Below are positions 55,394 to 64,000 of a DNA stretch of 64,000 nucleotides, piece by piece. Below the pieces are notes generated by a model that was given only the letters and a program-made list of their open reading frames with translations, did not search any database and was not told the origin of the DNA. Numbering within the stretch: the first letter of the stretch is position 1; each line of letters begins with the position of its first letter. The stretch covers positions 3,720,001 through 3,784,000 of the forward strand of contig NZ_JACCBN010000001.1 of the NCBI RefSeq assembly GCF_013409505.1. The letters are read 5' to 3'. The position numbers and the translations under genes are program-made. The DNA comes from Actinomycetospora corticicola (GTDB lineage: Bacteria; Actinomycetota; Actinomycetes; Mycobacteriales; Pseudonocardiaceae).

Positions 55394-57196
<1,803 letters not shown>

Positions 57197-60567: not shown

Positions 60568-61251
60568 GTGAGCGCCGACGTCTACCGCTCCGGTCACGCC
60601 CGCGTCGTCGCGCTGGTCGAGGGCCTTCCCGACGACAGGTGGGAGCGGGCGGTGCCCGCCTGCCCGGACTGGAGCGTGCGGGACCTGCTCGCCCACCTGG
60701 TCGGCACCGCGTCCGACGTCGCCGCCCGGCGCACCGCCGGGTTCGCCGGCCCCGAGTGGACCGCGACGCACGTGCGGGACCGGGCCGGGCTCGACGTCGG
60801 GAGCCTGCTCGCGGAGTGGGAGAGCCACCTCGCGGCGACGACGGAGGCGCTCGAGGAGCGGCGCGTCCCGCTCGCCGTCGTCGGGGACCTGCTGGTGCAC
60901 GAGGGCGACCTCGTGGAGGCGCTCGGGGCGCCGCAGCCGCCGTGGGACGGGTGGGCCGGGACCGCGTCGGTGCTGGTCCGGCAGGTGGTGAAGGGCATCC
61001 GCGGCCGGGAGACGCTCGTGGTGCGCGCCGGCGGGACCGAGTGGCGCAGCCCGGACGACACCGCCGAGGGCGCCGTGCGCAGCGTGCTGCGGGTCGACCT
61101 GTACGAGCTCTACCGCGGGTTGTCCAGCCGCCGGAGCCGACCGCAGATGCGGCGGTGGGACTGGGAGGGGCCGGCGGACCCGTGGGTCGACGCCCTGCCG
61201 GTGCACGGACCCCGGGACGACGAACAGCCGGTGCCCCCTCCTCGGGTGTGA
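60568..61251 (+). CDS. DinB-fold maleylpyruvate isomerase-family, mycothiol-dependent enzyme
   Basis: 227 residues. The N-terminal DinB/MDMPI domain has [20 protein letters not shown] and [13 protein letters not shown] near 31-43, in which the H of AHLV is the first metal ligand; [18 protein letters not shown] near 110-127 supplies the later His/Asp/Glu ligands. Members use mycothiol as cofactor for isomerisation or detoxification. The final ~20 residues are Pro-rich and are encoded within a bidirectional terminator stem, so the C-terminus is probably dispensable. Confidence 0.82.
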
Positions 61252-61288: not shown

Positions 61289-61645
61289 TCAGAGCCCGAG
61301 CAGCCCGGTGAGGGTCTCGGTGATCGTGGTCGTGCTGGTGCGGTCCGAGGTCTCGGTGCGGGTGTCGCCGTTGACGATGGTGCCGGCGAGCGTCGCGATG
61401 TTGTTGCCCGAGAGGATCTCGTTGCCGTTCAGGATGTCGCAGACGTTCGAGCCCGACAGGTCCTGGTCGCCACCGGTGGTGTCGCCGAGGGTGCGGCCCG
61501 CGCCGTTCTCGGAGGAGGCCTTGATCGCGTTCGAGCAGCCCGAGGCGGCGTGGCCCGACTCGTGGGCCGAGGCGATCCCGGCGAGCGAGCCGAGGCCGGC
61601 GCCGACGATGGCGGTGGAGACGACGACCTTGCGCAGCATGGACAT
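61289..61645 (-). CDS. array member 1: small secreted two-Cys protein, family unknown
   Basis: 118 residues. Signal peptide ~1-27 (MSMLRKVVVSTAIVGAGLGS, cleavage near ASA). The mature part has Cys37 (SGCSNAI) and Cys69 (SNVCDILNGN), 32 residues apart, with GAGRTLGDTTGGDQDLSGS between. An Asn/Gly core NGNEILSGNNIATLAGTIVN follows, then a Thr/Ser/Arg tail ending LTGLLGL. AGGAG is 6 bases before the ATG. Paralogous to the four genes upstream (116, 135, 115 and 116 residues) and to a partial one at the window edge. No enzyme motif; a surface or matrix protein is the simplest guess. Confidence 0.75.
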   Translation of the reverse strand: MSMLRKVVVSTAIVGAGLGSLAGIASAHESGHAASGCSNAIKASSENGAGRTLGDTTGGDQDLSGSNVCDILNGNEILSGNNIATLAGTIVNGDTRTETSDRTSTTTITETLTGLLGL

Positions 61646-61809
61646 GAATTTCTCCTGGGGAGCGGGCGGCGGACGCCGCCGGGAGGACCGCACGGCGGGG
61701 ACCGGGCGGGTGGAACGACACCGGGGGTTCGGGGACTCCCGGCGGAGTGCGGGGCGGGGCGGGCCCGCCGCGGAGCGCGCGGTCGGGGCGGCCCGTCCGC
61801 GGGCGGGGA

Positions 61810-62160
61810 CTACGCCGGCGGCGTGACCGTCGTCGAGCGGTCGACGGTGGACGTGTCGCTCGAGGTGCGCGTGATGTCGGTCGTGTCGCCGTTGACGATC
61901 GTGCCGAGCGCGGTGGCGACGTTGTTCTGGCTGCCGATCACGTTGCCGTTGAGGATGTCGCAGGTGTTGCTGGCGTCGAGCGTCTGCCCGCCACCCACGG
62001 TGTCGCCCAGCGAGTCACCGGAGGAGTTCTTCGCGGCGGCCTCGGCGGCGTTCGAGCAGCCCTTGGCGGCGTGGCCCGACTCGTGCGCCGAGGCGATGCC
62101 GGCGAGCGAGGCAAGGCCGGTGCCGACGACGGCGGTGGCGATCAGGGTCTTGCGGAACAT
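61810..62160 (-). CDS. array member 2: small secreted two-Cys protein, family unknown
   Basis: 116 residues. Signal peptide MFRKTLIATAVVGTGLASLA to ASA near 26; Cys at KGCSNAA and at SNTCDILNGN, again 32 residues apart. The core reads SSGDSLGDTVGGGQTLDASN, then NGNVIGSQNNVATALGTIVN and GDTTDITRTSSDTST, with a short Thr/Pro end instead of the Leu-rich end of member 1. GGGAG precedes the ATG. The downstream gap is GC-rich with an imperfect CCCGCCGCGGA/TCCGCGGGCGGG pairing that may terminate transcription. Confidence 0.75.
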   Translation of the reverse strand: MFRKTLIATAVVGTGLASLAGIASAHESGHAAKGCSNAAEAAAKNSSGDSLGDTVGGGQTLDASNTCDILNGNVIGSQNNVATALGTIVNGDTTDITRTSSDTSTVDRSTTVTPPA

Positions 62161-62203
62161 GGGTGTCTCCCGGGGAGCGTGAAGGGGCGGGCGGAACGAG
62201 AGA

Positions 62204-62611
62204 TCAGCCGAGGCCGCCGAGCAGGCCACCCAGGTCGAGGCCGCCGGCGCCACCGGGGGTCGCGGGCACCGTGGTGTCGGTGGTCTCGGTGTTGGTGTCG
62301 GTCGAGGTGCGCGTGATGTCGGTGGTGTCGCCGTTGATGATCGTGCCGGCGGTCGCGACGTTGTTCTTCGACGCGATCTGGTTGCCGTTCAGGATGTCGC
62401 AGAGGTTGCTGGCATCGAAGGCCTGGTCGCCGCCGGTCGTGTCGCCCAGCGAGTCACCGGAACCGTTCTCGCTCGCACCCGCGATCGAGTTGGAGCAGCC
62501 CTTGGCGGAGTCGGAACCGTGGTGGTCCCACGCGAGCGCCGCACCGGACATCGAGCCGAGGCCGGCCCCGATGATGACGGTGGTGAGAACGGTCTTGCGC
62601 AGCATCGACAT
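62204..62611 (-). CDS. array member 3: small secreted two-Cys protein, family unknown
   Basis: 135 residues, the longest member. Signal peptide MSMLRKTVLTTVIIGAGLGS to ALA; Cys at KGCSNSI and SNLCDILNGN. The core has GSGDSLGDTTGGDQAFDASN and NGNQIASKNNVATAGTIINGD followed by TTDITRTSTDTNTETTDTTV. Unlike the others it ends in a Gly/Leu-rich tail (PGGAGGLDLGGLLGGLG). A His/Asp cluster (WDHHGSDS) follows the signal peptide. The Gly/Leu end could be a sorting or assembly tail, which is speculation. Confidence 0.74.
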   Translation of the reverse strand: MSMLRKTVLTTVIIGAGLGSMSGAALAWDHHGSDSAKGCSNSIAGASENGSGDSLGDTTGGDQAFDASNLCDILNGNQIASKNNVATAGTIINGDTTDITRTSTDTNTETTDTTVPATPGGAGGLDLGGLLGGLG

Positions 62612-62828
62612 GTGGTATTCCCCCGAATATCGTCGTCGGACGGTGTGCGCCGGTTCCATGCAGTGCATGACGGCCACGTCGCAATCAACGGACGGCCCAT
62701 AGGAGGGTCACGGGGAAATCACGACGTTCCCCCGTTCGTGACGCCCCGAGTTTCGGGGCCACACCATCGCAGCAATTCACGACACTATTTCGCGACACCG
62801 TGACCTCGATAAACCCGAAAACGACGAC

Positions 62829-62865
62829 GGGCCGGTGCCCACCCTCGCGGGATGGGCACCGGCCC
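62829..62865 (-). terminator. terminator after array member 4
   Basis: GGGCCGGTGCCCA (62829-62841) and TGGGCACCGGCCC (62853-62865) form a perfect 13-bp stem with an 11-base loop, 26 bases downstream of the member 4 stop on the minus strand. Array members 3 and 4 are thus likely separate transcripts. Confidence 0.75.
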
Positions 62866-62890
62866 GGTCGGACGCGGTGACGGCGTGGAA

Positions 62891-63238
62891 TCAGCCGGCG
62901 GTCGTGGTGCGGGTGCTCGTGTCCGAGCTCGTGCGCGTGGTGGAGATGTCGGTCGTGTCGCCGTTGACGATCGTCCCGCCGGTGGCGGCGTTGTTGTCGC
63001 TCAGCACCTTGTTGCCGTTGAGGATGTCGCAGGTGTTCGACGCGGACAGGTCCTGCGAGCCCCCGGTGGTGTCCCCCAGGGTGCGGCCCGCACCGTTGCT
63101 GCTCTCGGCGGCGGCGGCGTTGGAGCAGGACTTTCCGGCCTCGCCGTGGCTGCCGTGCGCCATGGCGACACCGGCGGTGGAGGCGAGGCCGGCGCCCAGG
63201 ACGGCGGTGGCGAGAACGGTCTTGCGGAAGACGGACAT
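62891..63238 (-). CDS. array member 4: small secreted two-Cys protein, family unknown
   Basis: 115 residues. Signal peptide MSVFRKTVLATAVLGAGLAS to AMA; Cys at KSCSNAA and SNTCDILNGN, spaced as in members 1-3. Core: GAGRTLGDTTGGSQDLSASN, NGNKVLSDNNAATGGTIVNGD, then a Thr/Ser tail (TTDISTTRTSSDTSTRTTTAG). Closest to member 1 in the GRTLGDTTGG segment and to member 2 in its short end. Followed by a strong hairpin. Confidence 0.75.
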   Translation of the reverse strand: MSVFRKTVLATAVLGAGLASTAGVAMAHGSHGEAGKSCSNAAAAESSNGAGRTLGDTTGGSQDLSASNTCDILNGNKVLSDNNAATGGTIVNGDTTDISTTRTSSDTSTRTTTAG

Positions 63239-63346
63239 GAGTGGGATCCCCCGATGCATCGGTTCCTGCGGTCGAGGAGCCCAACGGATGCGGCACCGTT
63301 CTCGACGCGAATTCCCGGGAATGTTCGCCCGAACGGGAACGACGAA

Positions 63347-63380
63347 ACGGCCGACAAACGCGTACGCGAATGCCGGCCGT
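63347..63380 (-). terminator. hairpin after array member 5
   Basis: ACGGCCG (63347-63353) and CGGCCGT (63374-63380) form a 7-bp stem with a 20-base loop, 19 bases downstream of the member 5 stop. A further inverted repeat TTCCCGGGAA at 63311-63320 lies beyond it. Confidence 0.5.
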
Positions 63381-63398
63381 GGGTCGTCGGAGCGGGGA

Positions 63399-63749
63399 TC
63401 AGTTGAAGGGGAAGCCCGGGCCGAAGAAGGAGTCGAACGTCGTCGTGCGGGTGACGGTGCGGGTGATGGTCGTCTGGTCCCCGTTGCGGATCGTGCCGCC
63501 GGCCGTCGCGGTGTTGTTCCGGCTGCCGATGACGTTGCCGTTCCCGTTGTGGCAGGAGTTCGACACGGAGATGTTCTGGGACCCGCCGGTGACGTCCCCG
63601 AGGGTGCGGCCCACGGAGGTCTTGGAGACCGCCTTGACGGAGTTGGAGCACGAGTTCGACGGCGCGGCGCTCGCGATCCCGGCGGTCGAGGTGATACCCA
63701 CGCCGATCACGGCGGCAGCGATGGCGGCGCGACCGATGACGTTCTTCAT
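63399..63749 (-). CDS. array member 5: diverged small secreted two-Cys protein
   Basis: 116 residues. Signal peptide MKNVIGRAAIAAAVIGVGIT to ASA differs from the M(S)xxRKT type of members 1-4. Cys at NSCSNSV and SNSCHNGNGN; the CDILNGN motif has become CHNGNGN, and the linker is SVGRTLGDVTGGSQNISVSN. Core NGNVIGSRNNTATAGGTIRNGD and tail TTITRTVTRTTTFD, ending FFGPGFPFN. It is the most diverged complete copy, so the array did not arise by a single recent amplification. Confidence 0.72.
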   Translation of the reverse strand: MKNVIGRAAIAAAVIGVGITSTAGIASAAPSNSCSNSVKAVSKTSVGRTLGDVTGGSQNISVSNSCHNGNGNVIGSRNNTATAGGTIRNGDQTTITRTVTRTTTFDSFFGPGFPFN

Positions 63750-63875
63750 GACGTTTCCCCCTGGATTCTCACCGGCCGCGGGATGCATTCCGGTGTCAGC
63801 AGGGGAATCGGCGCCGGGCGGGCCGATGTCACCGATTCTGCGGCGTATCCGCCGAAAGGGTGACGACATGACGAA

Positions 63876-63946
63876 GGGCCGGACCCTCGCGCAGCTGGGG
63901 AGCCGGGCCCCGGGAATTCCCGGGGCCGTGCGCGTGGGTCCGGCCC
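63876..63946 (-). terminator. nested hairpin after array member 6
   Basis: Outer arms GGGCCGGACCC (63876-63886) and GGGTCCGGCCC (63936-63946) are perfectly complementary. Inside them lies a perfect 22-base palindrome at 63906-63927, centred on AATT. The structure begins 18 bases after the stop of the partial gene at the right edge. Confidence 0.65.
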
Positions 63947-63964
63947 GTCGAGGTCGGGGGCGGA

Positions 63965-64000
63965 TCAGCCCAGGAGACCCGTGAGGTCGGTGATGATGGT
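63965..64000 (-). CDS. array member 6: C-terminal end only (cut by window edge)
   Basis: Only the last 11 codons and stop are present: TIITDLTGLLG. They match the C-terminus of member 1 (TITETLTGLLGL), and the frame, strand and downstream hairpin follow the array pattern. The gene continues beyond the window. Confidence 0.5.
   Translation of the reverse strand, partial: TIITDLTGLLG

Follow-up and report, generated by a model that had tools for sequence, protein, structure and literature searches.

The right-hand end of a 64,000-nucleotide stretch of the Actinomycetospora corticicola genome (positions 3,720,001 to 3,784,000 of contig NZ_JACCBN010000001.1; hereafter the window) carries part of a tandem array of nine minus-strand paralogous genes, g1 to g9, which encode small proteins with a conserved core, share a common promoter element and are missing from the corresponding site in a sister clade. 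Chaplins and rodlins are the sheath proteins that have been studied on the aerial hyphae of actinomycetes. We propose, with a probability of roughly 0.55, that the array encodes clade-specific exported surface proteins made at aerial-hypha or spore formation under BldN-type control, working in a chaplin- or rodlin-like manner without demonstrated homology to either. The array probably specifies a surface coat of separate evolutionary origin, which in its mode of working would be a new form of actinomycete sheath protein. The restriction to one clade, the empty sister sites and the BldN-type promoters together suggest that sheath proteins can be invented anew under an unchanged developmental switch, and the sister species that lack the array offer natural controls.

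Coordinates beyond the window are given for the source genome (G000, 6.17 Mb) and its contig (C1); other G numbers denote genomes of relatives and L numbers denote loci. The array runs on for 2.65 kb beyond the window, up to G000:C1:3786653. Inside the window are five complete leftward genes and the terminal 36 bp of g6, while the remainder of g6 and then g7, g8 and g9 lie beyond the edge. An earlier note, made from the window's letters, had described a tandem array of at least six small paralogs, with five complete genes and one partial gene encoding 115-135 residues; this matches g1 to g5 and the end of g6, and the array proves to be longer. All on the minus strand, the genes are g1 (61289..61645, 118 residues), g2 (61810..62160, 116 residues), g3 (62204..62611, 135 residues, with a Gly-rich tail), g4 (62891..63238, 115 residues, absent in A. 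chiangmaiensis), g5 (63399..63749, 116 residues, with CHNGNGN and an FFGPGFPFN tail) and the end of g6 (63965..64000), the whole of which occupies G000:C1:3783965-3784327 (120 residues), with its promoter at 3784403-3784430. The assignments of g1 to g5 rest on open reading frame, start and family alignment, and for all but g4 also on clade membership. Plausible starts are present in all nine genes (seven ATG, two GTG), each with a purine-rich stretch ahead, and the N-terminus follows a K/R-hydrophobic-AxA pattern in 9/9 members, which is signal-like by sequence inspection.

Seven of the nine members (g1 to g6 and g9) share a core with CSN, LGDxTGG, SNxC, GNxxxSxNN and NGD in the family alignment, and its two cysteines are spaced 32 positions apart in these aligned proteins, as had been claimed earlier. 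A GDTTGG linker and an NGDT strand had been described as family-wide, which stands for g1 to g6 and g9 but not for the diverged g7 and g8, where the two cysteines and an LNNSxNGNxSNNS stretch are kept and both features are missing; likewise, the CDILNGN motif is exact in g1 to g4 and g6, but reads CHNGNGN in g5 and CHILTGN in g9. The g8 protein has a third cysteine ahead of the core. A tree of 43 array proteins, drawn from five species, places g1, g3, g5 and g6 in supported clades that each contain a single row for every species (5/5), and the g2 rows in a clade with the four species that have this gene; for g4 and g9 no such clade is resolved, and g7 and g8 rows cluster partly by species. The ratio of nonsynonymous to synonymous substitution rates (dN/dS), calculated from pooled counts with no significance test attached, spans 0.07-0.46 for the signal, 0.33-0.80 for the core and 0.20-0.97 for the tail; at all seven array positions tested, both signal and core stay below 1. 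Conservation of the array therefore exceeds chance, because same-position orthologs form supported clades and dN/dS lies below 1. These values speak against recently born genes of little function that are merely drifting, a reading that fits the presence in one clade only and the tails of g1, g6 and g9, where dN/dS is near 1, and that we regard as very improbable, the more so given the promoter identity described below. The signal peptides are under tighter constraint than the mature cores at 7/7 positions (g1 to g6, g9 and their orthologs), which is unusual; gene conversion at the 5' ends is one possible cause.

The evidence that points to developmental control is a CGTGACC...CGTTG element, found by aligning the regions upstream of array orthologs. 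As CGTGACC-N15/16-CGTTG it occurs at 11 sites in the source genome. Four of these fall inside the array within 4.1 kb, on its coding strand and 70-97 nt upstream of the starts of g9, g8, g6 and g3; the reversed pattern, used as a control, has no site in the same genome. The looser pattern CGT[AGC]AC-N15-18-CGTTG has 4, 4, 5, 5, 4, 4, 5 and 3 sites across the eight array loci, against a single site in window positions 1-60000; ten other loci, at eight distinct places, have none. The g8-type promoter (G000:C1:3786032-3786058) is identical at 27/27 bp, spacer included, in 8/8 species. Its spacer contains the palindrome CTCGATCGAG, which may be an operator. The g3 element, CGTGAC-N16-CGTTG by sequence match, lies at 62686..62712 on the minus strand, 74 nt before the start, and directly upstream of it a palindrome, TCACGA-N11-TCGTGA (62719..62741, minus strand; also array loci L049-L052), is kept in 5/5 aligned species and is also found ahead of g6 in some species. 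A reading of this palindrome as a group I site for BldM, TCACcCgnncGgGTGA, was rejected, since its TCAC and GTGA ends stand 15 apart and not 8 as in the published description.

The motif reported for BldN is CGTAACN16CGTTGA, with bldM as a BldN target (PMC2375139), and the chaplin and rodlin genes are named in a second report as the other key BldN targets in Streptomyces besides bldM (PMC4125116). Compared at the level of sequence only, the array element agrees with the BldN-dependent chaplin promoter save for one base in the -35 region. It thus points to a BldN-type sigma factor, and these promoters lend indirect support to the surface role in an actinobacterium that the earlier note had suggested for the array.

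Of the seven element sites outside the array, one is found ahead of a response regulator gene, two fall within long open frames, and the remaining four are upstream of other frames. The response regulator, here called BldM-like, has a receiver and a LuxR-type domain, and its gene sits between groES-groEL and rsdA-guaB. The element CGT[G/C]AC-N16-CGTT is found 233-321 bp before the TVLICDD codons of this gene in 18/18 genus genomes, and the base that follows CGTT is G in 17 of them. Its -35 part reads CGTGAC in 8/8 array carriers and CGTCAC, at another position, in 10/10 array-free genomes, so that the variant ahead of the gene (G000:C1:3880979-3881005; relatives L156-L173) tracks the clade split. 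Another exact match (G000:C1:5220382-5220408) precedes a gene for a secreted protein that, by reading, resembles an L,D-transpeptidase and could be a member of the same regulon.

Several points weigh against the proposed developmental surface role. No matching promoter of their own was found for g1, g2, g4, g5 and g7 in the source genome, the array -35 is one base off the published BldN motif, and two of the four array spacers are 17 rather than 16 nucleotides long. The dN/dS of the core is only moderately low. As for the regulator, whose gene order is that of bldM in S. coelicolor, the protein shares 36-41% full-length identity with relatives in plasmid records, so that its identity stays at BldM-like; these records were set aside as uninformative for proof of BldM identity at that level, one of them, from Pseudonocardia, reaching 56% identity over 46% of the query. 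Finally, neither the AlphaFold2 models nor a repeat test gives confident support for a fold or an assembly: the mean predicted local distance difference test score (pLDDT) is 39.6 for the core (shallow alignment, 41 rows) and 55.0 for the N-terminal region of one long relative (shallow alignment, 33 rows), and the internal repeat signal is not significant, with 0.24 of shuffles reaching the best lag.

The same pLDDT values and repeat fraction leave unsupported the short beta-solenoid that had been proposed earlier, while low model confidence would still be compatible with a fold. They also tell against a fibre or adhesin of vegetative growth, built as a beta-solenoid or in amyloid-like fashion and with no developmental tie, to which an Asn/Gly/Thr-rich core, two cysteines and a secreted array would be well suited; as the promoter evidence points to development, this explanation appears unlikely. 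Both core cysteines are missing together in 6/6 long relatives, a joint loss that fits a disulfide pair, short of demonstrating one. Beyond residue 28, the trimmed sequences contain eight histidines in g7, five in g8 and five in g9, and 0-1 in g1 to g6. Such His-rich N-termini in small secreted paralogs might indicate metal-binding or antibacterial proteins, but six members are nearly devoid of histidine by the same count, no immunity or processing gene was seen within the array, and the array positions are retained across species, all of which makes this function highly doubtful.

The membership of the array in known families was also addressed. A Pfam and NCBIfam scan of g1 to g9 gave nothing above cut-off, the best sub-threshold match being that of g5 to the MAP_0585 family (E 0.00089, with 19.4 bits where the cut-off is 170), and a profile of 57 cores matched no Protein Data Bank chain at E ≤ 1, in agreement with the absence of a recognised family stated in the earlier note. 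Its remark that chaplins do not match was also upheld, as no member has a ChpA-C domain (PF03777) above the curated cut-off by hmmscan, and a PF03777 search of the genus gave no match within any array (best E in the source genome 0.641, elsewhere); chaplin membership was rejected on this basis. Like the array, the chaplins of Streptomyces (ChpA-H, PF03777) are several small secreted two-cysteine paralogs with a BldN-type promoter element. Chaplins differ in their cysteine context and have a hydrophobic core, whereas the array core is rich in Asn, Gly and Thr. The sortase motif L[PA]xTG is found in none of the 43 array proteins, a scan that left the long second-locus proteins outside. The rodlins of Streptomyces (RdlA and RdlB), set beside the array by description, are likewise secreted and about 100-130 residues long; they are reported as a BldN target class in S. 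venezuelae, and RdlB is reported to form amyloid. Obvious rodlins were reported in streptomycetes only, and chaplin-like genes in few other genera, in a 2013 survey (PMC4255298). No description of the array in print is known from the papers listed in literature searches on Actinomycetospora with chaplin or rodlin.

The source genome also has four scattered rodlin-like genes (G000:C1:2384423, 4755437, 5336221 and 5882528; L017, L015, L016 and L019) with the pattern PxNxCNNxVPVNVLGVQVPVQD, among which those tested have no Pfam or NCBIfam match above cut-off; the family is present in 18/298 order genomes and 8/76 genera, often paired. This Pseudonocardiaceae family (PVNVLGVQVPxxD) resembles the array in having a similar signal peptide and two cysteines in the same genome, and differs from it in that the mature profiles do not align, the copies are scattered and there is no array promoter. 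The array could be a diverged branch of this family (PxNxCxNxVPVNVLGVQVPxQD), of the same sheath kind and with the mature part rewritten. The four genes do match the array profile through the signal region (E 2e-7 to 3e-5, own-genome matches outside the array and second locus), and array members of G155 contain a PVNVCHVLDDN stretch. On the other hand, the mature profiles of the array (alignment A4) and the rodlin-like family (A7) gave an hhalign probability of 1.3 over eight aligned columns, which does not indicate homology, the array promoter is found at none of the four genes, and gene conversion or convergence could account for the common signal. The profile comparison does not show descent from the rodlin-like family; we consider such descent rather doubtful, keeping it as an alternative because of the signal peptides.

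At E ≤ 1e-8 the array family is found in 8/18 Actinomycetospora genomes. Wider searches covered samples of family, order and class genomes and scored candidates from a loose first look (often 15-30 per genome), by which remote relatives may be missed. A seven-row profile (E ≤ 0.01) matched 6/150 family genomes, all Actinomycetospora and one (G118) over the signal region only; the 57-core profile matched, among 397 order genomes, the source genome and one 27-residue stretch in G091 (E 0.005), which was rejected as chance, an LSGNQVLSGN stretch lacking both cysteine and linker; and a profile of the cysteine-less core had one match in 394 class genomes, the source genome itself. The g9 protein had no match in plasmid and phage records, and no convincing relative was found outside Actinomycetospora in the sampled family, order and class genomes. 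An alpha/beta hydrolase gene (Pfam) adjoining g9 is present in 18/18 genus genomes, with the array beside it in eight, and the far side of the array is formed by a gene with an MDMPI_N domain and upp in 7/8 carriers, the contig of G156 ending first. All ten array-free genomes have a hydrolase-upp gap of 67-223 bp between aligned ends, with neither array nor MDMPI_N gene. Carriers and non-carriers fall on the two sides of one branch (100/100) of an unrooted hydrolase tree; a single gain is more likely than a single loss, because no array relatives were found elsewhere. The MDMPI_N gene (60568..61251, plus strand, PF11716) stands beside the array in 7/7 carriers whose contig reaches it and was gained or lost together with it. 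Diverged arrays are found in three carriers, with five genes in G152, six in G155 and at least four in G156, a 59% complete genome whose contig stops inside the array, while the other five carriers have eight or nine; alignment A4 covers five of the six G155 genes, the signal filter having missed at least one (match G155:C8:152070-152369).

If the array does encode surface proteins under BldN-type control, an extracytoplasmic function (ECF) sigma factor of this type would transcribe it from several promoters, before g9, g8, g6 and g3, and would transcribe the BldM-like regulator gene alongside it, at the time when aerial hyphae or spores form. The proteins would be exported through Sec with loss of the signal peptide, one disulfide would probably form between the two conserved cysteines, and the Asn/Gly/Thr core would mediate assembly of the products outside the wall, perhaps in an amyloid form, with the variable tails and the His-rich N-termini of g7 to g9 tuning the surface of the coat.

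A second locus (G000:C1:2754288-2756419; L056 7293-10585) encodes two long secreted proteins of about 439 and 496 residues, whose N-terminal part is a cysteine-less copy of the array core, followed by low-complexity tails. It is present in 5/18 genus genomes, every one an array carrier, and has no array-type promoter. A fuller history, offered tentatively and at less than even odds, is that up to nine two-cysteine surface proteins, an unrelated set, arose in one clade and came under a conserved BldN-type switch, the sheath material being new and the control kept, and that in the inner five species the long proteins of the second locus gained their N-terminus from a cysteine-less copy. Within the window, 4.4 kb from the array, a gene at 55394-56935 encodes a resuscitation-promoting-factor-like protein with three DUF348 domains, a G5 domain and a transglycosylase-like domain (Pfam).

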